Positions 5,266 to 60,436 of a stretch of 64,000 nucleotides of DNA are shown here, piece after piece. Position 1 is the first letter of the stretch; every line of letters starts with the position of its first letter. A model generated the notes under the pieces. The model made no database searches, was not told the DNA's origin, and saw only the letters and a program-made list of their open reading frames with translations. This DNA comes from Semisulcospira habei (lineage: Eukaryota > Mollusca > Gastropoda > Semisulcospiridae). The stretch is from positions 119,810,582 to 119,874,581 of the forward strand of contig BTPG01000002.1 in the NCBI GenBank assembly GCA_036245525.1. Direction: 5' to 3'. The position numbers were made by a program, and so were the translations under genes.

Positions 5266-6330
5266 ATGCTTACGTGCTCCCAATGCGGCGACTTCCAGTG
5301 GCCGACGGATGACCATGCGGTCTGCCTGCCCTGTGCTGGCTGCTCCTCGGACCACCTTTGTGATGTCTGTGCAACCTGGCCGGAGAAGCTTTGGTCAGAC
5401 CTCTGGAGCTTCTACTGGCGGGAGCGTCCTCCGCCTGTGACCTCGCGTCCGGCTCCAGTTGCCACTTCTGCCGCTGTTACATAACGACCGCCTCTTCCCG
5501 CCCTGGCCTCGTGGAACGGAATCCCCGTCAGGTGTCTGCCTTGTCCGCTGACCAGAGGACCGCCACTGCTGCCACGCCCGCTGACTCTTCCGGAGGGTCT
5601 GTTTGCCGGCAGAGCGCCCGCCTCACTGAGCCCGGCCTGCAGCAGTCTGCCCTGAGCCGTCCCACGTTGACCGACCTTCCTCGCCAGTCTCTCCCAGATA
5701 AGCCTGCTGATCCTTCCGGAGGATCTGAACGCCGACATAGCGCCCTGCTCACTGAGTCTGGCCAGGAGAGACGTCAGCCCCATCCTGCGCGACACAGTCG
5801 CGCCCCCGTCTCCTCCCGTTCCACCCTTAGTTCGAGACGCTCGCCGCTCGAGCGCCGTCGGAAGGATCGTTCGTCCCACCAGGATCGTCGCCACTCCTCC
5901 TCTTCGCATGCGCATTTGCGCTCGCCTTCACGCCGTTCGACACGTTCGCCTCGTCACCTCCTTCATCGGACCTCCTCTCCTCGTTGGCGCCCCTCTCCGG
6001 CTGGTCGCCGTCCGTGTTCCAGGCCTCGTTCTCACGCTCCGGTCAGGACCCCTCCTCGCGCCTTCTCGCGTTCGCCACGTCGTTCGCCGCAGCGGTCTTC
6101 GCTACCTGCTCGTCCCCGCGCTTCCCGCGATCTCCAAGACAGTTCCCGGCCCACTCGGCAGCCTCCGGCTTTCACGGTGTCTCGCCCGCCTTCTCGCCGC
6201 CCCCTGGAGGAAGAGACGCTTAGTTTGCTACCCGAGGATTCCGTCTCGGCCCTTTTGGACGAGGATGGTCGCTCCCTTTCGCCTGCTGACTGCGATGATG
6301 CTGCCCCCTCGGCTCTTCCGTCTTCTTCCC
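5266..6330 (+). pseudogene. DIRS copy 1 gag-like protein, N-terminal part, frameshifted and internally deleted
   Basis: The ATG at 5266 opens a cysteine-rich module (CSQCGDF, CLPCAGC, CDVC) followed by WSDLWSFYWRERPPP, the same block found in copy 2. The first frame stops at 5484. A second frame, open from about 5391, carries a long Arg/Ser/Pro-rich region (about residues 120-330) like the basic linker of DIRS gag proteins. That frame then passes directly into DNA that encodes RT in another frame. The conserved C-terminal gag block present in copy 2 (about 21450-22113) is missing, so an internal deletion of roughly 0.7 kb is inferred. The product would bind element RNA. Confidence 0.65.
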
Positions 6331-7950
6331 GTGCGGAGACCCTCCCTCCTGCGGAAAGCCGCCACGGAGGTGGTTCGAGTTCCCGACTCCCCAGCCTTCT
6401 ACAGCCGCTTGTTCGTCGTTCCGAAGCCTGGAGGGAGATGGCGACCGGTTATCGATCTCTCGGCCCTGAACAAGTTTATTACGGCCCCTTCCTTCCGGAT
6501 GGAGACTGCCCGAGCCCTGAAAGCCGCGGTCCAGCCTCTGGACTTCGCAGTCAGCTTGGACCTTTCCGATGCGTACCTGTATGTACCGATGCACCAGGCC
6601 TCCAGGAAGTTCCTCCGGTTTGCGATTGACGGCGTCGTCTACCAGTTTCGCGCGCTTCCGTTCGGACTCAACCTCAGCCCCTGGGTGTTCACCCGGCTGA
6701 TGGACGCCGTAGTCGCCAAGGCCCGACAGTCCTCCTCCAGTCCGACGTCGAATTACCTAGACGACCTCCTCCTCCGCAATCAGTCCGAGGCCACGCTCGC
6801 GACAGACAGGGATGCGCTGCTGCACCTCCTGACACACTTGGGCTTCCTAGTAAACGACGGCAAGTCGGATCTCACTCCTTCCCGCCGCTTTGTGCACCTG
6901 GGCATGGAATTTGCTACCGACCTCAACACGGTGCGTCTTCCGGCTCCCCAGATCCAGAAGATTGCGGATCTAGCCGGTCAGTTAGCTCGGGAGGACGCAG
7001 CCCCCGCCAGTGTCTGGCTTCAGCTTCTGGGCTTGTTGAACGCCGCAGCGGATCTTATCCCCCTGGGTCGTCTCTACTCCCGGCCGATTCAGCTGCATCT
7101 CCTACTCCATTGGCGCCCGTCATCCGGCGACTTAACGATGTTGGTTCCGGTGCCCCAGATGCTGCTTCCTCATATTCGTCGGTGGACCGACCCCTCTTGG
7201 CTAGCGTCGGGAGTTCCCCTGGCCTCTCCTCCTCCCCAGACCTCTCTTTGTGTCGACGCGAGCCTCACTGGGTGGGGCGCTCATCTCCTTCCTCGGTTCC
7301 TCTCGACATCGGGCCTCTGGCCCTCGGACTTAGCGCATACCCACATCAACTGGCTGGAGATGCAGGCCGTATGGCAAGCCCTTCAGTTCTGGGTGGATCT
7401 CCTCAGGCACCAGGAGCTGAGCTGCTCGTTCTCTCGGACAACACGACTGTGGTGGCTTACACCCAGAAACAAGGTGGCACACGCTCTCCCGACCTTTGTA
7501 TGCTCCTCTACCGGATGATGCGGTGGTGCGAGGACCGGGGCATTACCATTCGAGCTCGACACATTCCTGGACACCTGAATGTCTTGGCCGACTAGCTGTC
7601 TCGCCGCGGCCAGCTCTTACACACGGAATGGACTCTTCGGCAGGACATCTTTCAGATGATCTGCGCCCGGTGGGAGACTCCCCAGGTCGACCTGTTTGCC
7701 ACGAGGTGGAACCATCAGCTTCCTCTCTTCGTCTCCCCCGATTCCCGATCCCCTTGCCTGGGCTGTCGATGCGCTTGCCATTCCCTGGGACGGCCTCGTG
7801 GCCTACGCTTACCCCCCGACGGTCCTCGTACCCAAAGTCCTCCTCAAGTTTTGGGGCTGCTCGGCGGTCCTCCTGTTAGTCGCACCGTTCGCCTGGAATC
7901 GCTCCTGGACCACCGACCTCAGCCTCACCACGGACCCGCCCCTGCTGCTT
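6330..7950 (+). pseudogene. DIRS copy 1 reverse transcriptase-RNase H, mostly open, frameshifted at the end
   Basis: A single frame open from 5908 to 7518 contains RT motifs in order: DSPAFYSRLFVVPKPGGRWR, the catalytic block SLDLSDAYLYVPM, FRALPFGLNLSPWVFTRLM and NYLDDLLLRN with both aspartates present. The RNase H part follows with LCVDASLTGWGAHLL and HINWLEMQAVWQAL. Near 7420 the frame shifts; LVLSDNTTVVAYTQKQGG and ARHIPGHLNVLAD continue to a TAG at about 7593. After that stop, the conserved post-RNase H block (QVDLFATRWNHQLPLF, PDPLAWAVDALAI, AYAYPPTVLVPKVL) runs in two frames to about 7950. The core RT could have been active recently; the gene as a whole is not intact. Confidence 0.85.
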
Positions 7951-8024
7951 CCCACCCCACGCACCATGCTCAAGCAACCGCGCCAGCCGCTGTTCCACCA
8001 CTGCCCGGAGCGGCTCCTCCTTCA

Positions 8025-9106
8025 CGCCTGGAGGTTGTGCGGCAAGCCCTCGGAGCTAGAGGCTACTCGGGTGCAGCAGTGGAGGCGATCGCTGCGGCCC
8101 GCAGACCTTCGACCATTCGAGTCTACGAGGGAAAGTGGCGAGTCCTGTGTTCCTGGTGCTCCGAACACGGCCTGAACCTCACGGAACTGAACTGAATAAT
8201 CCTCAGCTGGCGGACTTCTTTCTCTGGCTCTTCCGAGACCTAGGCCTAGCCCCCATCACTGTGAGGGGATACCTGTCCATGATCGCGGACACGTATCGAC
8301 ACCTTGGTCACCCAGACCCGGGCGCCTGCAAAGACCTAGCCGACCTTATGGGACACTTCAGCATCCAGCGCCCAACCCACCGCTCACTCCTTCCCCGCTG
8401 GGACCTGCCCTGGGTGCTAACGTGGTTAAATTCTGCCAGATTCGAACCCCTACCTTTGGCCCGTTCCGCAGATGTAACACGAAAGACGTGCTTCCTGCTG
8501 GCCCTTGCTACCGCCTCACGGGTGAGTGAGCTACACGCACTTTCGGCGCGTCCTACCTGCCTACAGTTCCGAGCGGACGGGTCTGTTCAACTTCTCACTG
8601 ACCCTGTCTTCCTTGCCAAGAACAGGTCTCCTCTGACTGCGCCTCAGGTTATCACCTTACGGCCGTTAAGAACCAACCCTCTGTCCCAGGAGACCAGGCA
8701 ACAGGATCCCGTGCGCGCCCTTAGAGTGTATCTGCGACGATCTAAAGCCTTCCGCAGAGGGCGTTTGCGCCTCTTCCTACCTCTGAGACCCAGCAGGAAT
8801 GACATAACAGCCCAGACGATCTCTTCCTGGCTCCGCTGGGTCATACGCTCCGCCTATCAAGAGATCTCCCCGCAGGGAGTGAAGAGGCTACACATTCGCG
8901 CACACGAGGTACGAGCCATGGCCACGAGCGTCGCGTTTGATCGAAACTGCGCTGTCAAGGACATCGTGGCAGCTGTGGGCTGGAAGACTGAATCCGTATT
9001 TGCCCGCTTCTACCTCAGGGACCTGGCAGGCCAGCGAGACAATCTCGCACTGGTGGGGGACATCGCCGCAGCACAACACTCCCTCCCGGCGCCACCGGCG
9101 CCGTAG
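8025..9106 (+). pseudogene. DIRS copy 1 tyrosine recombinase, nearly intact
   Basis: The N-terminal part reads VVRQALGARGYSGAAVEAI and RRPSTIRVYEGKWRVLC (to about 8195). After a local frame change the core runs from 8135 to 9106, with ITVRGYLSMIADTYRHLG, the first catalytic region ATASRVSELHAL (Arg), HIRAHEVRAMATS (His-x-x-Arg) and FARFYLRDLAG (nucleophile Tyr). These are the R-H-R-Y residues of phage-integrase-type recombinases, which DIRS elements use to insert a circular DNA intermediate without target duplication. The end, PAPPAP then TAG, lies about 110 bp before the internal complementary region. Only the shift near 8195 spoils it. Confidence 0.85.
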
Positions 9107-10052: not shown

Positions 10053-11518
10053 AATAATAATAATAATAATTACGGTATTTATAATGCGCTTATCTTATAA
10101 TAATTATAACTCTTAAGCGCGCACTCACAACTCGCGCACGCATGCGCACGCTTTAGACAATGACTTGCGTACCACAAACAGTGGAATACATTACGACGGT
10201 CAGCTTGGGGTGGGGAGTGTGGTGATATAGTGCTAAAACTGTTGAAAGAGGTGAGTTTTGAGGGCGGACTGGAAGGAGGGGAGAGAGTGTTTCTGACGGA
10301 GAGAGAGTGGGGGAGTGTTCCAGGTGGATGGACCGTAGACGGAGAAGGAGCGGGGGCCGAAAGTGTTAGTTTGGTGCGAGGGATGTGGAGGCGGAGAGGG
10401 TCAGAGGCAGAGCGGAGGGAGTGGGAAGGTGTGTAGGGGTGAAGTAAGTTGGAGAGATAGGCAGGAGCACAGTTGTTCAGGGATTTGTAGCAGAGAGACA
10501 GAATTTTGTATTGGATGCGTTGGGGGATGGGGAGCCAGTGAAGGAGTTTGAGCAGGGGTGTGACGTGGTCGGATTTTTTCTTTCTGAGGACGAGGCGGGC
10601 AGCATTGTTCTGAACACGTTGGAGAGTGAAAATGGTGGAGTGAGGGAGGCCGGAAAGGAGAGAGTTGCAGTAGTCGATGCGAGATAAGATGAGAGAGACA
10701 GCAAGTTTGGTGGCAGCTTCAGTAGTGAGGTATTTTCTGATCTGACTGATGCGGCGGAGGTGGAAATAACATGCCTGGGCCGTGGCGGAAACGAAGCTGG
10801 TCATGGACAGAGAGGAATCGAGGATAACGCCGAGGTTCTTGGCCGAGTCAGAGAGGGAGATGGGGGTGCTATCGAGTTGAAGGTGGAGAGAGGGAGGAAG
10901 CTGGGAGAGTTTCTGGCGAGTGCCTACCAGCATGGCTTCTGTTTTGTCATCGTTCAGTTTTAGCTTGTTTGCTGTCATCCAGTTTTTCACGTCTTCATAG
11001 CAGTCAGCCGTGCGAGTCAGTAGTGACTGAGTGTTGTCGAGTTTGTCTTTGTCTAGCAGTTGTGAGTCGTCAGCGTAGAGGTGGTGGTGTATGCGGTGAG
11101 ACTGGATGATGTTGGACAGAGGAGAGGTGTAGAGTGTGAAAAGGACCGGGCCCAGGACGGACCCCTGTGGGACTCCGCAGAGAGCGTGACTGGGTTGGAA
11201 GAGACGCCGTTGATGGTGACGGACTGCTGTCTGTCGGAGAGGTAGGAGAGAAACCAAGAGTGAGAAGAATCAGTGATGCCAAAGGAGTGGTGGAGTCGGT
11301 GGAGGAGGATAGAGTGGTCTATAGTGTCAAAGGCGGCAGAGAGATCGAGTAGTGTAAGAAGAGAGATGTTGCCCAAGTCGGTGGAGAGAAGCAGATCGTT
11401 TAAGATATGTAGAAGGGCTGTTTCAGTGCTGTGATGTTTGCGATAGGCAGACTGGAATGGACTGAGGAGGTTGTTGTCGGTGAGGTGGAGGTTGAGCTGG
11501 TTGAGAACAACCTTCTCA
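10053..11518 (-). mobile_element. L2/CR1-like LINE, 5'-truncated, inserted antisense in the I-type LINE
   Basis: Reading the minus strand, RT motifs run FQSAYRKHHSTETALLHIL, LLDLSAAFDTIDHSILLHRL (motif A), [20 protein letters not shown] (motif B) and [10 protein letters not shown] (motif C). Then come [25 protein letters not shown] and [15 protein letters not shown], a C-terminal signature of the L2/CR1/Rex group. One frameshift lies at about 11150-11260. The long frame runs 11257 to 10079. The 3' end on this strand finishes in a GCGCATTATAAATACCG-like block and (ATT)n, and the 5' end is cut before the endonuclease. AGACTT flanks both sides (10047-10052, 11519-11524), and the host LINE frame resumes exactly after it. 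Confidence 0.88.
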
Positions 11519-24194: not shown

Positions 24195-24682
24195 AATCCT
24201 ACTCCACGCCTGGAGATTGTGCGGCGTGCCCTCGCCGCTAGAGGCTTCTTGAGTGCAGCAGTGGAAGCTATCGCTGCAGCCCGCAGACCCTCGACCCTGC
24301 GAGTCTACGAAGGGAAATGGTGAGTACTAGGGTCTTGGTGCGACGATCGTCACCTCTCCCCTACCGATCTGACTTCCCCACAGCTGGCCGAGTTCTTCCT
24401 CTGGCTTTTCACCGAACAGCACTTGGCGCCAATCACCATCAGGGGCTACCTCGCCATGATTGCCAACACATACCGTCACTTGGGCCGAGCGGACCCCGGT
24501 AAGTGCAAAGACCTCGCTGACCTGATGGCCCACTTCGGAATACAGAGGCCTGCCCTCCGCTCCCTGATCCCACGCTGGGACCTACCCTGGGTACTCACCT
24601 GGCTGAACTCCAGGCGTTTCGAACCGCTTCCCCTAGCAAGCTTGGCCGACGGAACGTGAAAGACCTGCTTTCTTTTCTCCCT
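24195..24682 (+). pseudogene. DIRS copy 2 tyrosine recombinase, N-terminal part
   Basis: RLEIVRRALAARGFLSAAVE and RRPSTLRVYEGKW end at a TGA at 24321. The next recognisable stretch, in another frame, is PITIRGYLAMIANTYRHLG and PRWDLPWVLTWLNSRRFEPL, ending at a TGA at 24657-24659. It reaches the insertion point of the nested DNA transposon at 24682; CCCT at 24679-24682 is the left target copy. The C-terminal part continues at 27693. Confidence 0.8.
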
Positions 24683-25209
24683 CACGGCTTTACCAGCCAG
24701 TGCTTGCGCGTAGCACTTAGTTCGCTTCAGGCGGCCAGAGAGATAAGGCGCAGCGAGGTCAAATTACCCTCTCGCTCGCTCATTCTATTTATATCGCACT
24801 TGCAACTGAGCTGTATACAGCGTGTCCGGAGCTCTGCGCTATAACAACTACCTACACGTTTGTATTCATAACACATCTCAGCCTAAAGTGACTGTTGTGA
24901 AAGTAGCATCGTTCAAAAGTTGAAATTCTTACCTACATACCGATACCAAACATGACAACATTACGACTTACACTTGTGTAGCAGATTATGGTGAAAATAA
25001 AGAGAACGAGAATTTGTTGATGTATGATGTCGTTGTTTGTTGTGAAATTGACAAAGTTCCCACAGCCATAACACGAAGACGTAACTTTTCCCAACGAAAC
25101 ACACTTGCACGCATAAGGGTCAGCATGCCTACAGTAAGTATCACTTACCGGATTTTCGCTACGCGCTGGGGGACGGAAGCAGGAGGGTGGTTAATGAGGT
25201 CACTGACAG
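24683..25209 (+). repeat. Left long terminal inverted repeat of the RAG1-like transposon
   Basis: Matches 27176-27688 inverted over about 520 bp with scattered mismatches, for example CACTTAGTTCGCTTCAGGCG, ACGTTTGTATTCATAACACA and AGGGTGGTTAATGAGGTCAC. The outermost 35 bp carry indels between the two ends; the inner part is closely matched. Confidence 0.9.
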
Positions 25210-25359
25210 GTCGCGTTCTGGCATTTCTCGCCCGTAGTCCCGGTATTCCACAGACTGCTAATACCCTCCGTGTACTAAAATCCGATTAGTCCATCACAGG
25301 TCACAGTATTCAACAGTGTTTTTAAATATACCTTGCGGTTCAGCACATTTGCTGACACA

Positions 25360-26980
25360 CTAGACAAAAGCACCAAAGAGTTTGACGAGAAAATCGTAAT
25401 CGCCAAACAGAAATACACGTATCTGTTTTTCTTTCCATTTCATGGTTTGGAGAAGTGACACCTGCTCTTTAAACGGCTGCAAAATTGTTTGAAGATTTTC
25501 ATGACTGTCTTTACAGTTAGCCATACACACCAAAAACGTATTGTGTTTAGAGTTAGGGTTTTGGAGATTAGCAACTTGAAGCATTGTTTTATAACTGTTA
25601 CCGCCATGATCTCCTCCTAGTTTTATCCAAATTTCATCATTTGGTATTTGTTCATGCCATGCAAGAAGATTTGCAGCTTCAAACTTGTCAAGCAGTTCAG
25701 GAACAAAATGTGTGAGATCCTCTATGTAGGCGACAGGCGTTTTCTGGCTTTCTTTCTTGTTTGTTACTTTGTTTTCAAAAGTCAGATTCTTTTGTTCAAT
25801 GGTCACTGTGCCACAGAGCGCTTCTTTCTGGGTCTGTCTTTCCTTTCTTTCACTTTCAAGTTTGACACCAATACTTCTCATGAAGCGTTTGTATGTTCTG
25901 TACTTGGACCAGCTTAATCCTAGATTGGTTCTCAGAGCAATACCCTGTTTTCTACAGACATACACGGATCGCCTATGGCCTGCTCTGTCTAATATTGCAG
26001 TCATTTTTTCATTTCTTTCTCGTCTTAACTCGTCAGTTATTTGTTCAGCTTCATCCACTTCTGATCCGCCAGACATATTTGCTCTAGCATGGGCTAATAC
26101 CTTAGACCTTCTTCGTATTACGGCTGATGATGCCCCTGTTGTTGGTTTTCTTGGTTTTGGTATGTGCATAAAATACAAAGGCTGTCCTCCAGTCTTGCAA
26201 CGGATTGTGGCATCAGCTGATTCATTAAGCATTGTGCGGTTTAGTGCCGTCTGATATTTTTCTTCCTCCTTTGTCAATGGCATCTGCAGTTCCTGGACAG
26301 GTCGAAGGCTGGGTCGTTTGATATGTGGAGATGTGGCTATATCGACACCCGTTTTTTCAATGGGTGAAATGGCTATTTCATGCGTCCGCTTGGCTGGTGG
26401 AGATGGGGTCCACACTCTTTGTAACGGCGACGTTTGAGCATCGACTTTGCATGGCGTTTTACGGGGAGTAGACATCGCGGGAATGAAAACTTGTATACCA
26501 CTATCACCTTCATTAGTGCTGTTATTAGTGTCAGTGTTATGAGTGTCACTGTGACATTCCACAGATCGAAACGGTCGTTTCTTCCCATGTGCACCCTTCG
26601 CTGGTCGTCCTCCTTTACCTAGCTGCATGAAATGAACGCACGCGACACATTCTTCAACACTCGTATTTGGATCGAACATGGTCCAAATGTGTTGTGATGA
26701 GGCAATATCAGACGCCGCATTTCGCGTTGTCTCCGCAGACACACGTGTTTCAGAGTCTATCCGTTTCATCCGACTATAGCAACTACTACACAGTGTTTTG
26801 GAGTGCATCAGGTCTTTGTCTTCCTGGATATTAATTCCATAACACTTGTGGATTAAGTGTTCATATTTGATACAAAGATATGACTTTTTATCACTGTGTT
26901 TCTTTTGTGATCTCCCGCCACATATTCTGCACTTAGTCGCAGTGCATGGAACACACCTGTGTGTACACAGACTGTATGCG
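25360..26980 (-). pseudogene. RAG1/Chapaev-like transposase, truncated before the third catalytic residue
   Basis: On the minus strand a 482-codon frame runs from an ATG at 26808. The same frame is open upstream to about 26980 and there encodes CVPCTATKCRICGG; no ATG was found for it, so a frameshift or an intron is likely. The order is: CRICGG and YGINIQEDKDLMHSKTLC, SSCYSRMKR, then TMFDPNTSVEECVACVHFMQ and GKGGRPAKG, which parallels the zinc-binding non-core N-terminus of RAG1. A linker is followed by a core with WIKLGGDHGGNSYKTMLQVA and IRVFLFGDYDFLVKLFG, two Asp blocks in RAG1/Transib order. The frame stops soon after, so the region for the final Glu is absent. It looks unable to catalyse transposition alone. 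Confidence 0.7.
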
Positions 26981-27175
26981 TTTCATCAGACTCCATCATG
27001 ATCAAAAGTTAAATCAAAAGTACATGTACACGGTTCACTGTTAGTGTTACACTATTTCCCGAGAAAGAAACGTGACTATCTCCTCAATAGTATCCGTGTA
27101 ACTAAGCCCTCACTTTCCCCGATTCGGCCGGGAGTGTACTAAGGCAGGCGCCTGGTACTTGTCTGTCGACACTTG

Positions 27176-27688
27176 TCAGTGACCTCATTAACCACCCTCC
27201 TGCTTCCATCCCCCAGCGCGTAGCGAAAATCTGGTAAGTGATACTTACTGTAGGCATGCTGACCCTTATGCGTGCAAGTGTGTTTCATTGGGAAAAGTTA
27301 CGTCTTCCTGTTATAGCTGTGGGAACTTTGTCAATTTCACAACAAACACCGGCATCATACATCAACAGATTCTCGTTCTCTTTATTTTCACCATAATCTG
27401 CTACACAAGTGTAAGTCGTAATGTTGTCATGTTTGGTATCAGTGTGTAGGTGAAATCTTCATCTTTTGAACGATGTTGCTTTCACAACAGTCACTTTAGG
27501 CTGAGATGTGTTATGAATACAAACGTGTAGGTAGTTGTTATAGCGCAGAGCGCCGGACACGCTGTATACTGCTCAGTTGCAAGAGCGATATAAATAGAAT
27601 GAGCGAGCGACAGTGGAATGTGACCTCGCCGCGCCTTATCTCTCTGGCAGCCTGAAGCGAACTAAGTGTCAGCTGTGGTAAAGGCGTG
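27176..27688 (-). repeat. Right long terminal inverted repeat of the RAG1-like transposon
   Basis: Reverse complement of 24683-25209; its outer end is GGTAAAGGCGTG followed by the CCCT target copy. Confidence 0.9.
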
Positions 27689-27692
27689 CCCT

Positions 27693-28293
27693 TGCCACGG
27701 CCTCCAGAGTGAGTGAGCTGCATGTGCTCTCAGCGCGCCCCGCCTGCCTGCAGTTCAGGACGGACGGCTCTGTGCAGCTACTGACGGACCCCACCTTCCT
27801 TGCCAAGACACAGTCCCCGTTGACCACCCCCCAGGTGATCACCGTTCGGCCGCTGAAGATGATAAGCCTGAACAGGGAAGCCAGACAGCAGAACCCGGTG
27901 AGAGCCTTACGCGTGTACCTACGCCGAACCAAGCCGCTCCGCCGGGGACGCTCCCGCCTCTTTCTCCCTCTGTCCTCAGGTAGATCCGACATCTTCGCCG
28001 AGACGATTTCGTCCTGGCTCCTTTGGGTGATACGCTCCGCCTACCGGGACCTCTGCCCTGACGCTGCCAAGCGACTACACATCAGGGCGCACGAGGTCAG
28101 AGCCATGGCCGCAAGCGTCGCCTTCGACCGCAACTGTGCTGTCCAAGACATTGTGGCGGCCATGGGCTGGCGGACTGAGTCCACCTTCACACGATTCTAC
28201 CTCCGAAACCTGGCAGGCCAGCGAGACAACCTGGCCCTGGTGGGGGGCATCGTGGCGGCGCAACACTCCCTCCCGGCACCTCCGGTGCCGTAG
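27693..28293 (+). pseudogene. DIRS copy 2 tyrosine recombinase, C-terminal part with catalytic residues
   Basis: Beyond the nested transposon the recombinase continues as ATASRVSELHVLSARPACLQ with the first catalytic Arg (the codons before SELH carry the target copy). Then follow RLHIRAHEVRAMAASVAFD (His-x-x-Arg) and STFTRFYLRNLAG (Tyr), ending PAPPVP then TAG at 28291-28293. The whole 3' part is free of stops and very close in sequence to copy 1. Only the insertion and the stops in the N-terminal part disable it. Confidence 0.85.
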
Positions 28294-29989: not shown

Positions 29990-30577
29990 TACTACTCCGC
30001 GGTGGACGCCTTGCCTGCTGCCACTTCTTGTGAACTGGTGCTTCCGGATGCCTCCTGCGCTGCGGCCTCGACCTCCCGGCCATTTAGGAAGCGGCTACGA
30101 CAGACGACGCGCACACTCCGTGCTGTACAAGTTCATCGCCGCCCCATCCTTCCGCGTGGAGGCCGCCCGAGCCTTCGCGCCGCAGTTCATCCTATGGACT
30201 TGGCCGACAGCCTGGACCTGTCGGATGCGTTCTGCTCGTCCCCAGGCACCCCATCTCCAGCCGTTACCTCCGCTTCGCCTTCGGTGGCATGGTCCACCAG
30301 AGTCGCGCACTTCCCTTCAGTGTCAACCACAGCCACTGGGTGTTCACCCGCATCATGGACGCCATTGTAGACAAGGCCAGACAGACATCTTTGTGCTCTA
30401 CGTCGACATACCTAGACGATCTTCTCTTGCGGAACCGGTCTGAGGCCTCCTTGGAGAAGGACCTAGTTGCACTTCTAGATCTCCTCAACAGGCTCGGCTT
30501 CCTGGTCAACGTGGGCAAGTCTGACTTGCCGCTTGTCCACCTAGGGATGGAATTTCGCACTGACCTCACGAAGTGCG
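29990..30577 (+). pseudogene. DIRS copy 3 reverse transcriptase, first part
   Basis: VHPMDLADSLDLSDAF gives the motif A region with frame changes on both sides. From 30289, RALPFSVNHSHWVFTRIMD and TSTYLDDLLLRNRSEASLEK retain the YLDD box. [17 protein letters not shown] leads to the LINE insertion at 30578. TCACGAAGTGCG at 30566-30577 is the left target copy. Confidence 0.8.
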
Positions 30578-31619
30578 ACTCCTACGACACTACGGTGTAC
30601 CCACAAAGCTCATCCGCCTGATCAAGAGCAGCTACGATGGCATGACATGTCGCGTGATCCACGAAGGGCAGTTCACCAGGGAGCTCCAGGTCAGAACCGG
30701 TGTCAGGCAGGGGTGTTTGCTGTCTCCGTTCCTCTTCCTACTGGCCATAGACTTGGTCATTAAAAGGACCACAGAGCACAGACGAAGTGGAATACAGTGG
30801 ACACTGTGGACACAGCTTGACGACCTCGATTTTGCAGACGACTTGGCTTTACTGTCCCACACTCATCAAAAAATGCAGGACAAGACCACGAGGCTTGCTG
30901 ACATCTCGTCCCAAGGGGGCCTCACGATCCACAAACAGAAAACAAAGACAATGAGGCTGAACGCAACCAGGGAAGAACCAGTCTTGCTTGCTGGCACCCT
31001 GTTGGAGGAGGTGGAGTCCTTCACCTATCTCGTGAGCATCATAGACAAAAAAGGTGGCACTGATGCAGATGTCAGAGCACGAATCGGTAAAGCCAGAGCA
31101 GCCTTTCTCCAGTTGAAAAAAGTGTGGAGTTCCAAAGAGCTGTCACAACACACCAAAGTCCGGATTTTCAACTCCAACGTAAAAGCAGTTCTCCTATATG
31201 GAGCAGAGACTTGGAGATTGACAAAAACCACAGTCAACAGAGTACAGATCTTCATAAACAGTTGCCTTAGAAGAATTTTGAAAATCCACTGGCCAGAGAA
31301 GATCAGCAACGCCAGACTCTGGGAGAGAACAGAGCAGATAACAGCAGAGAATGAAATTGGGCGAAGAAGATGGGGATGGATTGGTCAGTCTGAGAAAGCC
31401 AGTTTCCAGTATCACTAGGCAGGCATTGTCAAGGAACCCCCAGGGAAAGAGGAAAAGAGGCAGGCCGAGAAACACCTGGCGTCGAGACCTCCAAGCAGAC
31501 ATCAAGAGACTGGGAACCACCTGGAGTAAAATCGAAGGAGAAGCACAGGACAGGAGTCGCTGGAGGTCTCTCGTCGACGGCCTATACCCGGGGAGGGGTG
31601 ACAGGCGTAAGTAAGTAAG
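30578..31619 (+). mobile_element. RTE-like LINE, 5'-truncated, 12-bp target duplication
   Basis: An open frame to 31418 starts inside the RT fingers ([19 protein letters not shown]) and has [20 protein letters not shown] (motif B) and [15 protein letters not shown] (FADD, motif C). Then follow [30 protein letters not shown] and [14 protein letters not shown]. After a frameshift near 31370 the C-terminus GRPRNTWRRDLQADIKRL follows, ending by 31614. The 3' end is GTAAGTAAGTAAG, a short tandem tail typical of RTE elements. TCACGAAGTGCG at 30566-30577 and 31620-31631 fixes both boundaries. The ORF is nearly intact, so this is younger than the DIRS copy it lies in. Confidence 0.85.
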
Positions 31620-31631
31620 TCACGAAGTGCG

Positions 31632-32690
31632 GCTTCCGGAGCAGCAAATTAAGCAGTTGGCGAACCCAGCGCGGCAGGTGTCTCATGAGGGGGCATTCCC
31701 CGGCAGACTGTGACTTCAGCTTCTAAGACTGGTGAGTACGGCAGCGGACCTACTTCCCCTAGGACGTCTCTACTGCCCCCCGCATCAGCTGCTCCAGCTT
31801 CTCCCCTGGCGACCCTCGACAGACGACCTCAGGTTCGGGTGCTGCCGATGCTCCGTCATCACCTTCTTCGCTGGGCGGATCCTGACTGGCTCGCGACAGG
31901 AGTTCCCCTCTACTCGCCTCCACCTCAGCTGTCCCTTGCGTCGACGCAAGTCTCTCCAACTGGGGCGTTCACCTGCTACCGATATTTTCCACAGCCTCTG
32001 GCATATGACCCCCGGACCTTGTAGCCCAGCACATCAACTGGTTAGAGCTGAAAGCGGTCTGGCAAGCCCCCTTTGCGTGGGAGTCACGTCTGCGTCACCA
32101 CCAGCTTCTCATCCTCTCAGACAGCGCCACAGTAGTCGCCTACATCCAGAGGCAGGGCGGGACGCGGTTCCCCTCCCTATCCTTCCTCCTCTACCAGGTG
32201 CTCCGATGGTGTGAAGATCGAGGCATCATTCTCCGAGCGAGAGACATCCCTGGACTTCTGCATGGCACTCCATCGCGTGACGCGGCCAGCTTCTATGCAC
32301 CGAGTGGGCGCTCCGTCCAGACATCTTTCGGATGATCTGCGCGGCTGAGAAACCCCCATGATCAACCTCGGCGCGCCGAGGTGGATCGCCAGCTTGCCCT
32401 CTCATCTCCCCCATTCCTGTCCCACTAGCCTGAGCGGTCGACGCTCTCTCCCTCTCATGGGACGGCCTCGTCGCTTACACCTACCCACCTATGGTGCTCG
32501 TTCCCAAGGTCCTGCTCAAGCTCAAGGTTGCAATGCGGTCCTGTTCCTGGTGGCTACATGCTGCTGGACATGCTCGTGGACCGCCGACCTCCTGAACCTC
32601 GCCGTAGGCCCCTCTGCGGCTCGCCACCACGCGCACGATGCTTAGCAGCCATGGCGGGCACGGCACCTTCCGTGCCCCGAGCAACTCCTC
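31632..32690 (+). pseudogene. DIRS copy 3 RNase H and post-RNase H block, decayed
   Basis: Fragments in several frames read LQLLRLVSTAADLLPLGRLY-like, SLCVDASLSNWGVHL-like, LVRAESGLASP and SDSATVVAYIQRQGG-like stretches matching copies 1 and 2 in the same order. It ends with VPKVLLKLKV around 32500 and a run toward the recombinase. No frame is open for long. Confidence 0.65.
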
Positions 32691-33800
32691 CACGCCTAGA
32701 GGTGGTGTGGCAAGCTCTCGCCGCTAGAGGTTTATCAAGTACAGCAGTGGGAGCTTTTGCTACAGTCTGCAGACATTCGACCAGGCGAGTTTACGAGAGA
32801 AAGTGGCGAGTCCTGTGCGACTGATGTGACGACGAGCGCCTCTCCCCCACGGACCTGACGGTTCCCCAGCGGACGGAGTTCTCCCTCTGGCTCTTCACCG
32901 ACCAGCTTGGCACCAATCACCATTAGGGGCTACCTGGCCATGATCACCGAAGCGTACCGCCGTTCGGGCCGACCGACCCTGGTGACTGCAAAGACCTCGC
33001 CGACCTAATTTGGCCCACTTCGGTCTACACGTCCTGCCCTTTGCTCACTGTTGCCGCGATGGGACCTACCCTGGGAGCTAACGTGGCTCGACTCGGACCG
33101 CTTCGAACCACTCCAGTTGGCGCAGACGGCCGCCGAAGTGATGCGGATGTCCTACTTCCGACTGACCTTCGCCACTGCGGCCATGGTCAGCGAACTGCGC
33201 GCTCTATCAGCACGCCCCTCAGGCTTACAGTTCCGGACGGATGGCTCTGTGCAACTGCTGACCGACCTGGCTTTCTAGCCAAGATCCGGTCTCCATGGGT
33301 CGCCCCACAGATGGTCACCATACGGCCCTTGGGGGATTCAGGCCCTGCCCGGGATACCAAACAGCAGGATCCGGTGAGAGCCTTTCACGTGTGGACTGGA
33401 CCAAGCCGATACGCAGGGCACGCACCCACATATTCCTCCTTCTGTCCCCAGGTAGAAATGACATCTCAGCCCAGACGGTATCCTCCTGGCTCCGATGGGT
33501 GATATGTGCCGCCTACCAGGATCTCTCCCCTGATGCAGCCAAAGGAATGAACATCAGGGCGCACGAGGTCAGGGCCATGGCCATGGCCACAAGCCTCGCA
33601 TTCGACCGCTCCTGTGCCATCAAAGACATTGTGGCGGCCATGAGCTGGCGAGCGGATTCGACTTTCACCCGATTCTAACTGAGGGACCTCTCCAGCCAGC
33701 GCGAGATCCTATCGGGTCCTCTCCGGCCAGCGAGAAAACATGGCGCTGGTGGGAGACATCCCCGCGGCGCAACACTCCCTCTCAGCACCCTCGGTGCCGT
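32691..33800 (+). pseudogene. DIRS copy 3 tyrosine recombinase, decayed
   Basis: EVVWQALAARGLSSTAVG and RVYERKWRVLCD (to 32822) open the N-terminal part. From 33051 RWDLPWELTWLDSDRFEPLQ and ATAAMVSELRALSARPS follow; the expected catalytic Arg of ASRVSEL is changed to Met. From 33295 the other frame gives MNIRAHEVRAMAMATSLAFD and RADSTFTRF, ending at a TAA where copies 1 and 2 have the nucleophile Tyr. A short local duplication around 33690-33730 repeats the LSSQRE block. Confidence 0.75.
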
Positions 33801-41828: not shown

Positions 41829-42251
41829 ATGGCAACGATAGCTATTATGATTGGAGGCGCGATGGTCAACGCCCTCGCTTTCAGTGGCTCTAATTATCTC
41901 TTTTCAAAAATGGGTAGAGAAGAATCTGCAGAAGAATTGAAGCGTCACAATGAAGCGTCAGAAAAATTAGCACAAGCGCAGCAGGATTATGAAAAGAATA
42001 GAATAGAGAAACTTGATTTCATCAATGAAAGATTGAGGCTTGAAGGTCACGCACAACATACGTTTTCAAATACAGACGAAGCAATCAGGGAATATTTTCT
42101 TGTCACAGGTGAAGACATGTCTATCCCAAAACCAAAACTCAGTGACTATTACAAACCGAGTGCACAACAAAGAAATGGGGAGATAATCTTTGTTCTAGTG
42201 GGAATGACATTTGTTTATTTTACTGGACTTTATATTGCTAGAAAAAAATGA
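41829..42251 (+). CDS. Polinton conserved two-membrane-helix, coiled-coil protein (140 aa)
   Basis: An N-terminal hydrophobic segment (IAIMIGGAMVNALAFSGSNY, residues 4-23) is followed by a charged heptad-like stretch (EESAEELKRHNEASEKLAQA, LDFINERLRLEGHAQ). REYFLVTGEDMS and LSDYYKPSAQQRNGE precede a C-terminal helix (IIFVLVGMTFVYFTGLYIA). The pattern GxMxNAxAFxGSNYLFSK...LSDxYxPS recurs in Polintons of several animals as an uncharacterised protein. Its stop overlaps the integrase ATG by 4 bp (ATGA), implying coupled expression. Confidence 0.75.
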   Translation: MATIAIMIGGAMVNALAFSGSNYLFSKMGREESAEELKRHNEASEKLAQAQQDYEKNRIEKLDFINERLRLEGHAQHTFSNTDEAIREYFLVTGEDMSIPKPKLSDYYKPSAQQRNGEIIFVLVGMTFVYFTGLYIARKK

Positions 42252-43210
42252 CAGCCGAAAATAAACTATCAAAAATATATTACTCACCATCAGGGTATTA
42301 TAAAGGAGCAACCGCTATTCAGAAATTACATGCCGCTGTGGGCGGAGATATAACACTCAATCAAGTCAAACAATGGTTGCAGAGACAGGCAATTTGGCAG
42401 ATATATCTCCCTGCTCCAAGAAAGATAACAAGACCTCATTTTGAAAACACTATACCAAATGACACCCATCAAATGGACCTCCTGTTCTTACCACATGACA
42501 CAATAAGAAAGAAACGATACAAGTACGCACTGACTGTTGTAGACATTGCTTCAAGATATAAAGACGCTGAACCCATATCTGACAAAACAGCCAACACTGT
42601 TGCTACTGCATTAACAAAAATATATGGTCGTGGCCCTTTAAGATACCCCAGACTTGAACAAGTTGATGATGGATCTGAATTTAAGGGCGCAGTTAATCAG
42701 TTATTTGCGAAGCATGGCGTACTGGTCAGACGAGGCATTCCAGGTGTGCACAGATCACAGGCAATTGTAGAGAACTTTAACAAACAGTTATCAGAAAGAC
42801 TTTTCAGCTACCAGTATTCTAAGGAACTCATGCATGACACCCGTAACACTGAGTGGGTTAAGAGATTACCACATGTGATAAAAGCAATGAATAATGAAGG
42901 ACACCCTAAGCCTGCTGATGCTATTAAATTGAAAACAATTACAGAACCAAAAACAGGATCAACCCCAGCACCAGACACAAGTTTATTTACAAAACAAGTA
43001 AGATATCTGTATCAACCTGGAGAGGCCGAGAATGACGTCAGGCGCAGGGCAACAGACCCCATCTGGTCTACATCTGTACACAATATAAAAAAAATAGTCC
43101 CCGGAAACCCATCAATATATTATCTGTACGAACCTGCACCACAGAGGGCATTTGTCAGAGAAGAATTACAGATTATCCCCCCAGACACTGTTACTCATTT
43201 CAGTAACTAA
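42248..43210 (+). CDS. Polinton integrase (retroviral-type DDE)
   Basis: A 320-residue protein. The catalytic triad reads D77 (HQMDLLFLP), D140 (QVDDGSEF) and E175 (AIVENFNKQ), the D-D-35-E spacing of retroviral-type integrases. The N-terminal part has KLHAAVGGDITLNQVKQWLQ, a helix-turn-helix-like helper region; no clear HHCC finger was seen. The C-terminal ~100 residues (RYLYQPGEAENDVRRRATDP, IYYLYEPAPQRAFVREELQ) form the usual Polinton integrase tail. The gene is fully open and is expected to cut and join the element's ends into host DNA. It converges with polymerase B, and the two 3' ends overlap by 45 bp (43166-43210). Confidence 0.92.
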   Translation: MTAENKLSKIYYSPSGYYKGATAIQKLHAAVGGDITLNQVKQWLQRQAIWQIYLPAPRKITRPHFENTIPNDTHQMDLLFLPHDTIRKKRYKYALTVVDIASRYKDAEPISDKTANTVATALTKIYGRGPLRYPRLEQVDDGSEFKGAVNQLFAKHGVLVRRGIPGVHRSQAIVENFNKQLSERLFSYQYSKELMHDTRNTEWVKRLPHVIKAMNNEGHPKPADAIKLKTITEPKTGSTPAPDTSLFTKQVRYLYQPGEAENDVRRRATDPIWSTSVHNIKKIVPGNPSIYYLYEPAPQRAFVREELQIIPPDTVTHFSN

Positions 43211-46200
43211 CTCGTCAATCAGTTCATCACAAATGTCTTCAGATAACTTAAGCCTGTAGTGCCCGGGTGCATAAGCTTTTTCCTTACTGTGAAACACACG
43301 CTTTGTGTCCCCTATTGCAAGTGACTTCTTATGTGTTTGGATCATTTCAAGATTTTGTTTGTTTGATCTCAGTGACTTGTTTGGATAATCAGGCATCAAT
43401 GCACCATCTAACACTTGCTTGTAATGATCATGACGAATGTCTTTATTTTTTATTGCTGTTTTTTTAATTCCTTTGGCTTTTGACTGACTTCCCTTTTGGT
43501 GCAGTATAGAATACATTTTTGATCTCAGTCCAACATACTCAACTATTGGCACACCATTCAGTTCATCCTTAAACTTTCCAGGCACTTTCTTATTTTGTGT
43601 GCTAAACAGTGGATGATCCTTAGGGTAGTCAGACGTGTCATACATGTGTAACTCTGTTTTCATGTCTTCATAAAAGTCTTCAGTACATACATCAATGATC
43701 ATAGAGTCAGTGTCAGTGTATAACAATCGACACTCAGGATACTTCGGTTTGAAGTAATCATAATAAAATTCAAGCATCAACAATTTTGATAACTCAAGAA
43801 TTGCCATACCAATGAATACTGGTTTGTCCAGTTTAACAATCTTTTTTTTGAGTGACACAGCATACAATGATGAATGAAACTCTTTATACCCTGTATACTG
43901 TGGCTTACCTGTGAGTTTAATTGCACCTGATTCAGTTGTTACTAATCTCACATCTTTGCGGTGATGAGGATTTTCCATTGTCTTGCCAAAACAGGCATTG
44001 TTCATAAGCTTAAAGAAGTCTTTGTCAAATGCAGTGTTGCCGTCTCTGGCACGCAATGTTGTGTTCTTCATTATGTAATTTTTCATGAAAGCACTCTGAT
44101 CAAATTGAATTCCTCTGTGAACTTTCTTTAGTACTAACCCATGTCTGATGTAAAACTGTAACAATCGATAGTGGCAAACATAATTGAATTTGTCATTCAA
44201 ATTCGGCACAAGTTTAGTGTCTTCTTTTTTACCTGTCATGCTCATTTTCTCAACAGCTAATGGATAATCATTATGATAATCATGTAGATGGTGTGGGTAC
44301 TCCAGGTCTACTTCAAAGATCCAACCCTTCGCGTCGTTTCGGTCATGACTCATAATATTGTTTGTTATGTCTGTTATGTCATACTGTGACAAATCATACA
44401 GACAAAAGTTTTTCAAGGGCAATAACTCACACATTGCGAACCCATAGAGGTTATTAGCGTCAAGGTACGTAATGAATGACCTTGACCTTGAGGGGTCAAA
44501 CCCCTGGTCAAGGTCATCCAGATATTTGTTGTTGGCCTTGGCATAATTGTTCGCTGCAATACTAATACCACCCCTCAATCCACGTTCCACCATTTCACCC
44601 ATCGTACGATCAGACAACAGGTCTATAAATATCTTGCTGGATTTCAAAAATGCATCCCATGACATGCCAGGACTAGTTATGTAACAAGCAGGGTCAAGCT
44701 TGTAGTGTAACAAACCCTTTTCACGGTAACTTTCAAATACGTCTGCTAGCAAACAAACGTCTGCCTTTAAGTACTGGTCATGATAGTCACCAATAGTCTG
44801 ACACCCTAATTTACCCCATGCATCAAGTGCGTGTTGATATTCAGAGTCAGAAATATCTTTACCATTAAGTGTAGAATAAAATTTCTCTTTTGGTGGCAGT
44901 CTTGTTTCCTCAAACACAACCCAGTGATCAATGTACTCATATGGATAAACACCTTTTTTGATCAAGTCTGGTTCAAAATATTTACTCGTTATCGGATACT
45001 CAGTCAGTCCTTCTGCCAAACTAGCAAGACCTAAAGACAAATGTTGCATGGAGTCATAAAAATGCTAATTTGTCTAACCTAAAAGTCAAGTACTTCTCAG
45101 TTGTCTGGGCAATGCAACTTATGTTTTTGTAAGATTCATCCACAGCCTGCATGATGATGTGTGAATCATACCCTTTGAGATTGTGAAAAAAGATTGGTAA
45201 CTTATATGTCTTGGGATCTATTTTTAATAATAAATTACACTTGGTATGTGCAGCATGTCTGTAGCGTCCAGTTATGTGATCATGGTCACGAACTTTGTCA
45301 CCCTGTAGGTGTTTTTCACAAATCCAACACGTCACGGCTGTATCAAAATTTACTTTATCTTCTTCTGTCATCATCACAGGCATCTGATTGTTTTCCAGAT
45401 AATGTACTACCTGACTGTACAGTTGTCTCATTTCTGTTAAAAACAGACATGCTGCATTTTCCCCTCTGTAGATAACAGGCTCGGTATGCTGACCGTCTGA
45501 CTTAACAAGAATATAACCAAAAGAACACACCACTTGGTCACTCAATTTTACTGTCTTTGGCAATGATTCTGGAACAGGACCATCATACGGAACAACCAGT
45601 GATTCAAAATCAGCATACACTACAAACGGTAGCTTTTGCTGATTCCTATAATTCTTGAAATATACTTGACTACCAGGATCTGGATACTTAAGTACTGTTT
45701 GTATATCATCAGCTGACCTGCAGTGTAAAACATGTTTGTGTGCCACTTCAATAGAGGAAAACCTTTGTAAACATCTCTTACACACTTCCTGTTTACTAAC
45801 ATATTTTGAAACAATACTGCGAATTAGACGTGACATACTTCTGATAATTGTGTAGTGAAAATTAACATTATCACCAATTAGTAACATGTCAACATGTTTG
45901 TCTTCTGACTGTCCGTAGGTTGGAGCAAGTGGCGATACTCTAATGGGTTGTAACTTGTTATCAGAGTCATTATCCCATACATACACATTCACAGATATGC
46001 CAGGATTTAATTGTTCAAACAAATCTATGTCCTCTACCTTAACAGGGAAATCTATGCCACTGAAATTAAGTTCATTTACAAATTTGGTGTAGTTAGATAC
46101 GCGATCAGGTCTTGTTTTTACATAATGTAGTTTAGCAAGCACACACCACATAAAACAGAAATTGTCATTGTTCTGTATATTGACCACAGCCTTTTTGTTT

Positions 46201-46610
46201 GCAACGTCTGTTGGCAGTGGTATCCATGATTTACCTAATATAGGATGATACCTTGACTGCTTTAGTTGTAGTTCATGTACATGTCCTTCGTGCCAACCAG
46301 ACCCCTTCATTTTTGCACTGTCAATTGCTTGGAGGAAGTCTGGTAACAGTCTGTCTCTAAACACGTTTTCCAATTCCCTTCTTGTGTTAACTGTGTGTTG
46401 TCTTGTTGATATATACGATACAATCACTTCACCGTCTACTCTAGTAAATTCTATTTTTGCAACAATCTGAATCTTTACACTGCCTGTAAGAAGATTATCT
46501 TGTATGGCAGAAAAAGACATTTCTATCGATTCATAAACATTGTTACTATTAGATATAGGCAAGTCTGTTGTGTGAAACACATTACGTAAGCCTTGAACAT
46601 TGTCCGTCAT
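43166..46610 (-). pseudogene. Polinton A protein-primed DNA polymerase B, frameshifted
   Basis: The ATG at 46610 opens MTDNVQGLRNVFHTTDLPIS. The N-terminal part has NIQNNDNFCFMWCVLAKLHY and CKRCLQRFS. Exonuclease I is VVYADFES. A zinc/HNH-like insert follows (CWICEKHLQGDKVRDHDHIT), then exonuclease II HNLKGYDSHI. Near 45050 the frame is lost in a T-run next to a 3-bp deletion relative to copy B; the second half is open from 45049 to 43166. It holds polymerase motifs DANNLYGFAM, NNACFGKTMEN and LLYTDTDSMIID, with the metal-binding aspartates kept. Such polymerases copy linear DNA using a protein primer. With one frameshift the gene is probably inactive, unless the shift is an assembly error. 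Confidence 0.9.
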
Positions 46611-46646
46611 TTTTATTTGTCGGACAAAATAATAATAATAGAAAAA

Positions 46647-46970
46647 TTACACTTTGTGTAATACCACTTTATTGACTGTAACACTGTTAATATAAACATT
46701 TAGTTTACGTAGTTGTTGAAATATTTGTTCACAAAGTATCTCAAACCATTTATTATTTTTAACTCTTAAGGTGGGTGTCCTAAAATCAACTGTCAAACAC
46801 TCCACATCTGGATGCTCATCAACATAATCTAAAGTCATATTATATGATAAATATATTGCTGTTGGTTTTAAGACATTTATGTCAGGCTGTTTTGGACATG
46901 TTCTTATCTGAGTAAAGTGTACAACATCTCTAAAACAGTGTGTGATGTCAATGGTTTGTCCGTCTGTCAT
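46647..46970 (-). CDS. Small conserved Polinton protein (107 aa)
   Basis: Starts MTDGQTIDITHCFRDVVHFT, has TLDYVDEHPDVECLTVDFRT near the middle and ends QLRKLNVYINSVTVNKVVLH. Copy B encodes a clear relative at 60053-60400. The start at 46970 is preferred to an upstream in-frame ATG because MTDGQ is conserved in copy B. It is placed between polymerase B and packaging ATPase on one strand with short AT-rich gaps. Function unknown; conservation between two copies that otherwise differ in insertions suggests it was useful to the element. Confidence 0.75.
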   Translation of the reverse strand: MTDGQTIDITHCFRDVVHFTQIRTCPKQPDINVLKPTAIYLSYNMTLDYVDEHPDVECLTVDFRTPTLRVKNNKWFEILCEQIFQQLRKLNVYINSVTVNKVVLHKV

Positions 46971-46997
46971 TTTTATTGGACAAAACAAAAGTATAAA

Positions 46998-47609
46998 TTA
47001 ATTTACTAACCCATAGCCTGTGGGCTGATCCGTCTTTAAAATAAGTTTTAGATGCTTAGTTGATTTCAGTTTATTTTTTACATCATCACGTTCCTGCTTA
47101 TTTGGTATGACATCATTTTCTCTGAGACAGTCTTCAAAGCTGTCACGGTCCTTACAGTAAAACAAACAGATAAACTTTAACTGTTCTCGAAAATCTTTCA
47201 GTACAGCATTATATTTTTGAGTGAGAATCCATACACTGATGTTTGCGTGTCTGCCACTAAATGCCAGTTCTGCCAGTGTGTTTCTTTTCTTAACAATGTC
47301 TTTCTCTGCAGAACAGTCATCAACAATAAACAATGTTGACTGTCCTTCAAATTGTTTGTAAAAATACAGTAGGTAGTCATTCAATTTTTTCTCAGGGTCA
47401 ACTAAATAGATATTACTGTCAGTCCAAATGAATAATCGGTTGTGATAAGCTTTGTTGTGTTTTATTGTTGGACAAAATATTACTATGTTTTCGAAATGGT
47501 ATATATATCTTGTTTGTAAGAGGTTAAGAACAAATTCAGTTTTCCCACACCCTGTCGCACCACAAAATAATCCACAGTGTGGGTTGAGGGTCATCAAGTT
47601 CCGGTTCAT
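46998..47609 (-). CDS. Polinton packaging ATPase (FtsK/A32-like)
   Basis: A 203-residue protein. Walker A is GATGCGKT (residues 17-24), Walker B is TLFIVDDCS (D97, D98) and a later polar residue sits in WILTQKYNA (residues 127-133). Length and motifs match the small genome-packaging ATPases of Polintons, adenovirus-like and giant viruses, which pump DNA into the capsid. The start at 47609 (MNRNLMTLNPHCG) is preferred; an in-frame ATG 12 codons upstream adds a poorly conserved KIIISIK tail. It lies 20 bp after the capsid stop on the same strand. The gene is fully open. Confidence 0.9.
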   Translation of the reverse strand: MNRNLMTLNPHCGLFCGATGCGKTEFVLNLLQTRYIYHFENIVIFCPTIKHNKAYHNRLFIWTDSNIYLVDPEKKLNDYLLYFYKQFEGQSTLFIVDDCSAEKDIVKKRNTLAELAFSGRHANISVWILTQKYNAVLKDFREQLKFICLFYCKDRDSFEDCLRENDVIPNKQERDDVKNKLKSTKHLKLILKTDQPTGYGLVN

Positions 47610-48077
47610 TTTAATACTAATTATAATTTTAATACAAGTGTCCACTTAGTCTGCTTTCTGCAATATTGAGTTGTGCATCATAAATCAGATACAAATATAT
47701 GTTTATTGCTCCTCCTGTTTCAGTCTTTTTTTGTATCTGAATTGTTATTCCGTCACTGCCGTTTTCAACAGTACGTCCTGACCCATGTAGGTAATTGTCA
47801 TCTGTACTACGCAGGTCTAGCCACAGTGCATATTTTTCTGTCAGGTATTGACTGATCCTTACGTCATACAGATGTAAATCTTTACACGCCATGTTTGCTG
47901 GTTTTTCTCTAAGTCTCCCGCCCGCCCACTTTATAATCTCGTCATAGTGTTGATAAGGCAGCATGCCCGATGCGTACACTTGATTAGGTCGACCTTCAAT
48001 CGTACAGGATAAATGTGTAATCTTTGGATTGTAGAATTTTTCTGACTCTCTTTTGAATGGATTTTTTGGTTCAATAA

Positions 48078-49038
48078 CCCATATCCATCGGTATACGCCC
48101 GCGTGCGTACACACCCATTTCCATCGGAATACTCCGCCGCGCGTAGGCCCCCCTTTCCGACGGTATACTCGCCGACGCGTAGTTTAGGTGGTTCCCCTGT
48201 GTCCCTCTGTGTACACGTAAACCCCTACTTCCCATGACATCACAGGTTAGTGCTCTAAACGTCATCGAAATATGTGCACTTTTCCCAGTTCCGACCGAGA
48301 ATTTGCCGGAAGTTGTAAACCTTTTTTACGCTAATTTTTGCCGCGTGTTAGAGTGAATACATCGAGCATGATGGCCGAGCCAGGTGAGAGAGAGGACGTG
48401 AGCGATACAAGCGGCGATTTTGAATTAGATCCTGACGACAACATATTAGGGGAAGATGAAGAGTGGAGATTCGAGATGTACAAGTTTACGATGAGTTGAG
48501 TGATTTAGTTCGTCAAATTTTCGGCGATAGTGTGGAAGACAACGATGATTTTCCTGGGTTTCAAGATGGCTGGCAACGTGACAATTTTATTCCTTGCGTC
48601 AATAGAAAATGTGTAGTTTTCAAACCACTTGATGGATTTCATTCATTCTTTTTTTATTAGGCAGAAAATAGAAGTGTGTATATTTTACAGGCATATATGC
48701 TGCAGTGATTTTGGATCCTTCTATTGAAATAATGTACTTGAACACAAGGTATGTGAACATTTTTGCAATAGACTCACTTTTACACTAAAATAATTTTTTT
48801 CTGTTTTCTTTTTCTCAGTTTATTTTTACATGGATAGCTAGTATATTCAATGCTGAATCTGCTGATATGCAACACTTAATGTTTTAGGGTGGGGTTGAGA
48901 CTGTTTTAAGCCTTTTATACAACTACCACTCGTGCACTAAAATTTCCTAAAAAACGGTCAGCTCTGAGCAGGCACTCTCTGTAAGGCCTCTTAGCTCACA
49001 GAGTGCCTGACTGGAAGTGTCTTCCAGATGGATATGGG
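48078..49038 (+). mobile_element. 961-bp TIR element with CCC ends in the capsid gene (piggyBac-like?)
   Basis: CCCATATCCATC at the left end (48078) faces GATGGATATGGG at the right end (49038). ATAA is repeated at 48074-48077 and 49039-49042. Capsid coding is continuous when the insert is set aside, which confirms the ends. Left-end sequence repeats an ACCCATTTCCATCGGAATAC unit. Inside, a plus-strand acidic stretch begins ATGGCCGAGCCAGGTGAGAG (48371) and a second frame reads DDFPGFQDGWQRDNFIPCVN, ending at 48660. CCC ends, a TTAA-like target and an acidic N-terminus recall piggyBac elements, but the target here is ATAA. Probably a non-autonomous copy holding only the start of a transposase. 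Confidence 0.7.
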
Positions 49039-54721: not shown

Positions 54722-54746
54722 TCTTCTTTTTTATGAGATAATAAAA

Positions 54747-55451: not shown

Positions 55452-55471
55452 TTTTATTTTTGTTTATAAAA

Positions 55472-56356: not shown

Positions 56357-56382
56357 ATAAAAAATATTTGTCAATAAAAAAA

Positions 56383-60400: not shown

Positions 60401-60436
60401 TATTTTTTCATTTATTATTTTGTCGGACAAGTAAAA

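Follow-up and report, generated by a model that had tools for sequence, protein, structure and literature searches.

A truncated transposon in Semisulcospira habei and its intact relatives: a probable Chapaev-type family with RAG1-like features

The window analysed here, a stretch of 64,000 nucleotides from a 1.98-Gb assembly of the gastropod Semisulcospira habei, carries a non-autonomous element of 3,006 bp (24683-27688, no strand assigned) inserted in a DIRS-type element. We consider this insertion, with a probability of about 0.92, to be a deletion derivative of a Chapaev-type cut-and-paste DNA transposon of the CMC group, with boundaries set by its terminal inverted repeats (TIRs), its target site duplication (TSD), and its comparison with 29 other copies in the same genome. 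The window copy is unable to make a complete transposase and holds no functional RAG1-like gene. The likeness to RAG1 proposed in an earlier reading made from the letters of the window (hereafter, the sequence-only reading) is nonetheless real, as judged from sequence for the N-terminal zinc region and from the predicted fold of relatives for the core, and the interpretation given there is partly supported overall.

The element begins with CAC and ends with GTG, its outer sequences being CACGGCTTTACCA on the left and TGGTAAAGGCGTG on the right. These open the left TIR (24683-25211, plus strand) and close the right TIR (27171-27688, minus strand), the latter lying upstream of the transposase gene; the inverted arms proper (24714-25211 and 27171-27668) are 95% complementary over 498 nt. 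The outermost 13 bases of the two ends agree at 12 of 13 positions. Just inward of them, the left end has about 11 additional bases, and it also contains two two-copy families of internal repeats (14-22 nt, 77-79% alike) that may be due to chance. On both sides, the element is flanked by CCCT (24679-24682 and 27689-27692, plus strand), as read directly and from empty paralogs. The boundaries, CAC ends, and CCCT duplication named by the sequence-only reading are thus correct by the TIRs, the TSD, and the other copies.

The target lies in a gene of which the left part (24324-24659) and the right part (27682-28293), both on the plus strand, are recognised as open frames and by paralog alignment, the right-hand frame opening within the end of the element. 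The other two DIRS copies of the window, at 7419-9106 and 31905-33677, are 73-74% identical to the host copy; both continue unbroken across the junction and so stand as empty sites, as had been claimed for one of them. The same holds for all 14 paralogs retrieved elsewhere in the genome, with 85-93% identity across the 400 bp of joined sequence (40 matches scored of 6,780 first-look candidates). When an empty DIRS site of identical sequence was sought by exact matching, tolerating up to 30 extra bases, 0 sites were found and 0 in the control, and DNA similarity was used in its place because the paralogs differ by point changes. Insertion into a DIRS-type element stands, while the naming of the interrupted gene as a recombinase is weakly backed by Pfam: an integrase N-terminal match stays below the cut-off in the left part (E = 0.0053), the right part matches 0 families, and the intact paralog at 8060-9106 gives an integrase match that is also below the cut-off (E = 0.0048). 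The neighbouring paralog frame at 5671-7518 is a clear reverse transcriptase (Pfam E = 4.4e-21). By eye, three DIRS-type copies extend over ~5.4-9.1 kb, ~19.9-28.3 kb, and ~29.8-33.8 kb of the window, and DIRS paralogs elsewhere in the genome reach 90-93% identity, versus 73-74% in the compared part for the two window copies.

The family has many copies in the genome. Searched with the first 521 bases of the left end, all 40 scored matches (of 1,749 first-look candidates) were full length and 99-100% identical. The outermost 31 bp of the right end have 141 exact genomic copies and the reversed control pattern has none, so these matches are not due to chance; the undeleted core of group A, one of two groups of intact copies, occurs at 93 exact sites (reversed control, 0). 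Duplication lengths were read from 30 copies, that is, the window copy and 40 further loci reduced to distinct copies with both ends recognised. Loci L001 to L008 of the left-end search coincide with the window and L029 to L035 and did not enter the count a second time; L013 (same place as L035) and L029 (contig edge) were dropped, as were L010, L014, L018, L023, L024, L027, L038, L040, and L047, in which one or both ends were unrecognised in the stretch. Ends were placed by BLAST in 17 copies (the window and 16 others) and by a terminal pattern containing CACG in 13. The flanking 4-mers are identical in 28 of the 30 copies and matching 5-mers occur in none; the check on ends and duplication lengths that the sequence-only reading had suggested thus turned out in favour of that reading. 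The target sequences are mixed, with no strong preference by eye.

Intact relatives fall into group A, typically 4,255 bp with a protein of 940 aa from the first Met, and group B, of 4,272 bp with 941 aa (942 aa in L015), the two diverging by about 7%. Their transposase gene is a single open frame whose start lies about 690 bp inward of the right end, and an uninterrupted frame of 943-945 codons is present in 12 of the 20 loci of one sample. All 7 intact frames inspected in the genome carry DDE together with C(2)C, LH, and H(4)H, with two Glu in GEQGGE as candidates for the catalytic Glu. The dN/dS between groups is 0.22-0.24 in three comparisons, and the transposase protein was therefore under constraint. 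Differences are small within group A (median 0.43%, maximum 1.36%, 21 copies) and within group B (median 0.28%, maximum 0.75%, 9 copies). Given these small differences, the intact frames, and the constraint, sequence comparison suggests that the family has apparently been mobile recently. Two group A copies, L029 and L031, are ~4.65 kb long, about 400 bp longer than the others of that group.

Compared with the intact 4,255-bp copies, the window copy has a net loss of 1,242 bp, whereby the transposase is gone after about residue 545 of 940 (~40% of the protein). With this part went the catalytic Glu as well as C(2)C, LH, and H(4)H, leaving only the two Asp. What is left is a C-terminally truncated frame of 540 aa on the minus strand (25360-26982; Pfam DUF1280, E = 3.6e-20). 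It contains the N-terminal zinc region, or Chapa domain (26593-26931; CRICGG, LMHSKTLCSSC, CVACVHF, and GKGGRPAKG, located by position reading and a homolog profile match), followed by the first catalytic Asp block (GGDHGGNS, 25594-25617), whose Asp is invariant in 15 homologs, and the second (FGDYDFL, 25387-25407), whose Asp is nearly invariant in homologs, all on the minus strand. Zinc motifs in RAG1 order and two Asp blocks are hence present in this frame as first described. A private 7-bp deletion behind the start (26932-26933, no strand), seen in 1 of 30 copies, throws the first Met (ATG 26997-26999) out of frame, and with the C-terminal deletion, it makes the 540-aa frame a remnant.

The window copy is a member of a 3,013-bp derivative of group A. 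Its deletion junction, at 25366-25372 (no strand), is identical, down to the same short filler, in all 10 copies sampled from this derivative, and the exact junction occurs at 29 genomic sites (reversed control pattern, 0). As aligned, the breakpoints show no microhomology, the short filler being found instead. Since junction and filler are the same in all sampled copies, a single origin of the deletion, with later spread, is most likely, and this spread would have needed transposase from other copies. One of the ten, L042, carries about 1 kb of extra DNA.

How far the family resembles RAG1 depends on the part compared. A profile of ten N-terminal homolog sequences matches the RAG1 N-terminal domain (PDB 21wb) with an E value of 7.9e-10, and the zinc motifs run CxxC, HxxxxCxxC, CxxC. 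In two AlphaFold models of relatives, RAG1 and Transib cores match far above other folds; the predicted core fold is closest to those of RAG1 and BbRAGL, and a RAG1-type core would span DDBD to CTD. Structural alignments with RAG1 and BbRAGL have 13-18% identity. A possible counterpart of the nonamer-binding domain would be helices modelled at low confidence (residues 327-375 of the first model), covered solely by a poor alignment to 6oen, with a root-mean-square deviation of 11.9 A. A second homolog search, run with the alignment and scoring the 7,987 candidates with the most words in common, found 3 proteins, of which 2 had not turned up before, and a scan of IMG/VR for relatives gave 51 pattern matches with no true relative among them. 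A whole-genome search with PF12940 (RAG1 core) and PF12560 (RAG1_imp_bd) found no match and is uninformative, the control genomes being equally silent and PF12560 missing known copies. A ZAD-like nature of the N-terminal domain (zinc-finger associated domain) is a weak lead; the open literature yielded no report linking Chapaev with this domain, and a link between RAG1 and ZAD was not found by title among the matches listed.

Several results weigh against our assignment or against the kinship with RAG1. The Chapaev label was set by published hallmarks rather than by clustering with reference sequences, and Repbase itself has, according to a passage of PMC4455052, merged Chapaev into EnSpm. The fold cannot separate Chapaev from other CMC groups because no CACTA or Chapaev entry is among the fold matches listed. 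Two of the 30 copies, L039 (TGCT/CTCC) and L041 (TGGA/CGGA), are without a perfect duplication, and in 13 of the 30 the CAC end is there by construction and not independent because the search pattern already contained CACG. As for RAG1, the similarity is significant by sequence for the N-terminus alone and not for the core. The window frame by itself matched no RAG1 chain and scored 14.4 bits with RAG1_imp_bd against a curated cut-off of 23.3; two intact frames, with 19.0 and 8.0 bits, are also under that cut-off, and 3 of 15 homologs match at E <= 0.1.

The alternative of a Transib or a RAG-like (RAG1L/RAG2L) transposon would account for the CAC ends, the RAG1 N-terminal zinc motifs, and a predicted core fold nearest to RAG1 and BbRAGL. 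Against it stands the 4-bp TSD, with 5-bp duplications in 0 of 30 copies, whereas those of protostome RAGL elements are described as invariably 5 bp in part of PMC7204232. The end CACGSCTTTACC departs after CAC from the RAGL consensus CACTWMCAAAC. There is also no room for a RAG2L gene, since six intact copies, searched in six frames each, have one frame of 943-944 codons and next longest frames of 133-214 codons on the opposite strand (judged by length only), and no RING-type cysteine pair, as residues 126-398 in the protein of L035 contain no CxxC. The window frame and two intact frames were likewise unmatched by the Pfam RAG1 core model. Transib and RAGL are therefore excluded by the 4-bp duplication, and RAGL also because neither a second long frame nor a RING is present; we leave them the smallest probability of the readings weighed here. 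A CMC/CMCT member other than Chapaev (CACTA/EnSpm, Mirage, or a new lineage) is hardly more probable. It could share the C(2)C and H(3-4)H motifs, given as common to CACTA, Mirage, Chapaev, and Transib in a passage of PMC12730594, as well as a RAG1-type fold, which may be common to all these groups, but the 4-bp TSD, the LH motif, and the Chapa domain speak against it. This domain is attributed to Chapaev, Chapaev3, and RAG1-type proteins and said, in an excerpt of PMC4411706, to be absent from all other known transposable elements.

The hallmarks of Chapaev itself, as listed in a section of PMC4079192, are 3-4-bp duplications, CAC/GTG ends, and the DDE, C(2)C, LH, and H(4)H motifs. Intact copies of the family show these hallmarks, and a place between Transib and Chapaev, for which the sequence-only reading considered the window copy useful, is not supported. 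A further alternative is an N-RAG-TP element, a transposon with a RAG1 N-terminus-like gene alone. The window copy taken by itself, which encodes the N-terminal ~58% of the protein, would fit it, and secondary reports place such a RAG1 N-terminal-like element in a mollusc. The N-terminus-only state is, however, the result here of deletion from a complete transposase, which makes this alternative unlikely. The Aplysia N-RAG-TP, reportedly described by Panchin and Moroz in 2008, may itself be a truncated Chapaev.

For the Chapaev-type family, we propose the following model as the most likely, based on anatomy, kinship, and predicted fold. Intact 4.25-kb copies encode one transposase of 940-942 aa, in which an N-terminal zinc (Chapa) domain precedes a predicted RAG1/Transib-type DDE core. 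Supplied by an intact copy, this protein would bind and pair the two ~0.5-kb inverted ends and cut at the outer edge of CAC. The 3' ends would then be joined to target DNA with a 4-bp stagger, whose repair would leave the 4-bp duplication. The predicted RAG1-type fold suggests that cleavage could start with a nick, after which the flanking DNA would be closed into a hairpin. Deletion copies lack the catalytic part and would hence be moved in trans, and the transposase would presumably act by DDE chemistry.

Other frames of the window probably belong to further mobile elements. The frame at 42242-43210 has an integrase core (Pfam rve, E = 4.1e-9), and long frames within 42242-57078 and 60401-63628 look, by eye, like Polinton/Maverick genes, among them one for a protein-primed DNA polymerase; the polymerase-like frame at 43166-45064 has no Pfam match at E <= 0.1. 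Reverse transcriptase frames at 3157-3855, 10079-11269, and 30564-31418 (Pfam RVT_1, E = 3.4e-26, 1.5e-14, and 3.3e-13) are of non-LTR (long terminal repeat) type by eye, and the last sits within the third DIRS copy.

A relation between RAG1 and Chapaev was already proposed in 2015, the Chapa domain being equated with part of the RAG1 N-terminus in passages of PMC4411706, and our data support it. The origin of the RAG1 N-terminal zinc region has received two published answers, namely, fusion of Transib with N-RAG-TP (an excerpt of PMC8355894) and common descent with Chapaev (the same passages of PMC4411706). New here are the many near-identical intact copies, the clean 4-bp duplication size, and a deletion derivative that has spread, together with predicted structures that would place the core with RAG1 and Transib. 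We tentatively suggest, as an idea more doubtful than probable, that Chapaev transposases are complete RAG1-type recombinases, in which the RAG1 N-terminus is a zinc dimerisation domain of ZAD-like type, fused to a RAG1-fold core whose stagger in joining is 4 bp where that of RAG1 is 5 bp; RAG1 would then have inherited N-terminus and core together, not from Transib plus a separate N-RAG-TP, the latter being a truncated Chapaev like the window copy. The interest of the family lies in its intact copies and its structural link to RAG1: as its many intact genes are nearly identical, its ends are defined, and its predicted fold is of RAG1 type, common descent with Chapaev could be approached by biochemistry and structure. 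The window copy, for its part, illustrates how a truncated Chapaev can mimic a transposon with little beyond a RAG1 N-terminus.

Set beside known systems, the family is closest to the Chapaev transposons, reportedly described by Kapitonov and Jurka in 2007. The intact copies share with them the CAC/GTG ends, a TSD of 3-4 bp, the DDE core with C(2)C, LH, and H(4)H, and the Chapa domain, and no feature of the family has been shown outside the group, the comparison being by published hallmarks. Chapaev3 is alike in motifs and ends, but its own TSD is TWA, between A and T, unlike the 4-bp mixed-sequence duplications seen here, and it is excluded for that reason. Canonical Transib is limited to the core, with no further domain, as stated in a passage of PMC4411706, and HzTransib differs in its 5-bp TSD. 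Vertebrate RAG1 and BbRAGL have the same order of N-terminal zinc motifs and the same predicted core fold. Counted from D708, which we take to be the relevant Asp, to C727/C730 from the alignment, RAG1 also has in common with the family a D-to-CxxC spacing of 19. RAG1 and BbRAGL differ from the family in their 5-bp joining, versus 4 bp here, where neither RING/ZDD nor a RAG2-like gene is present.
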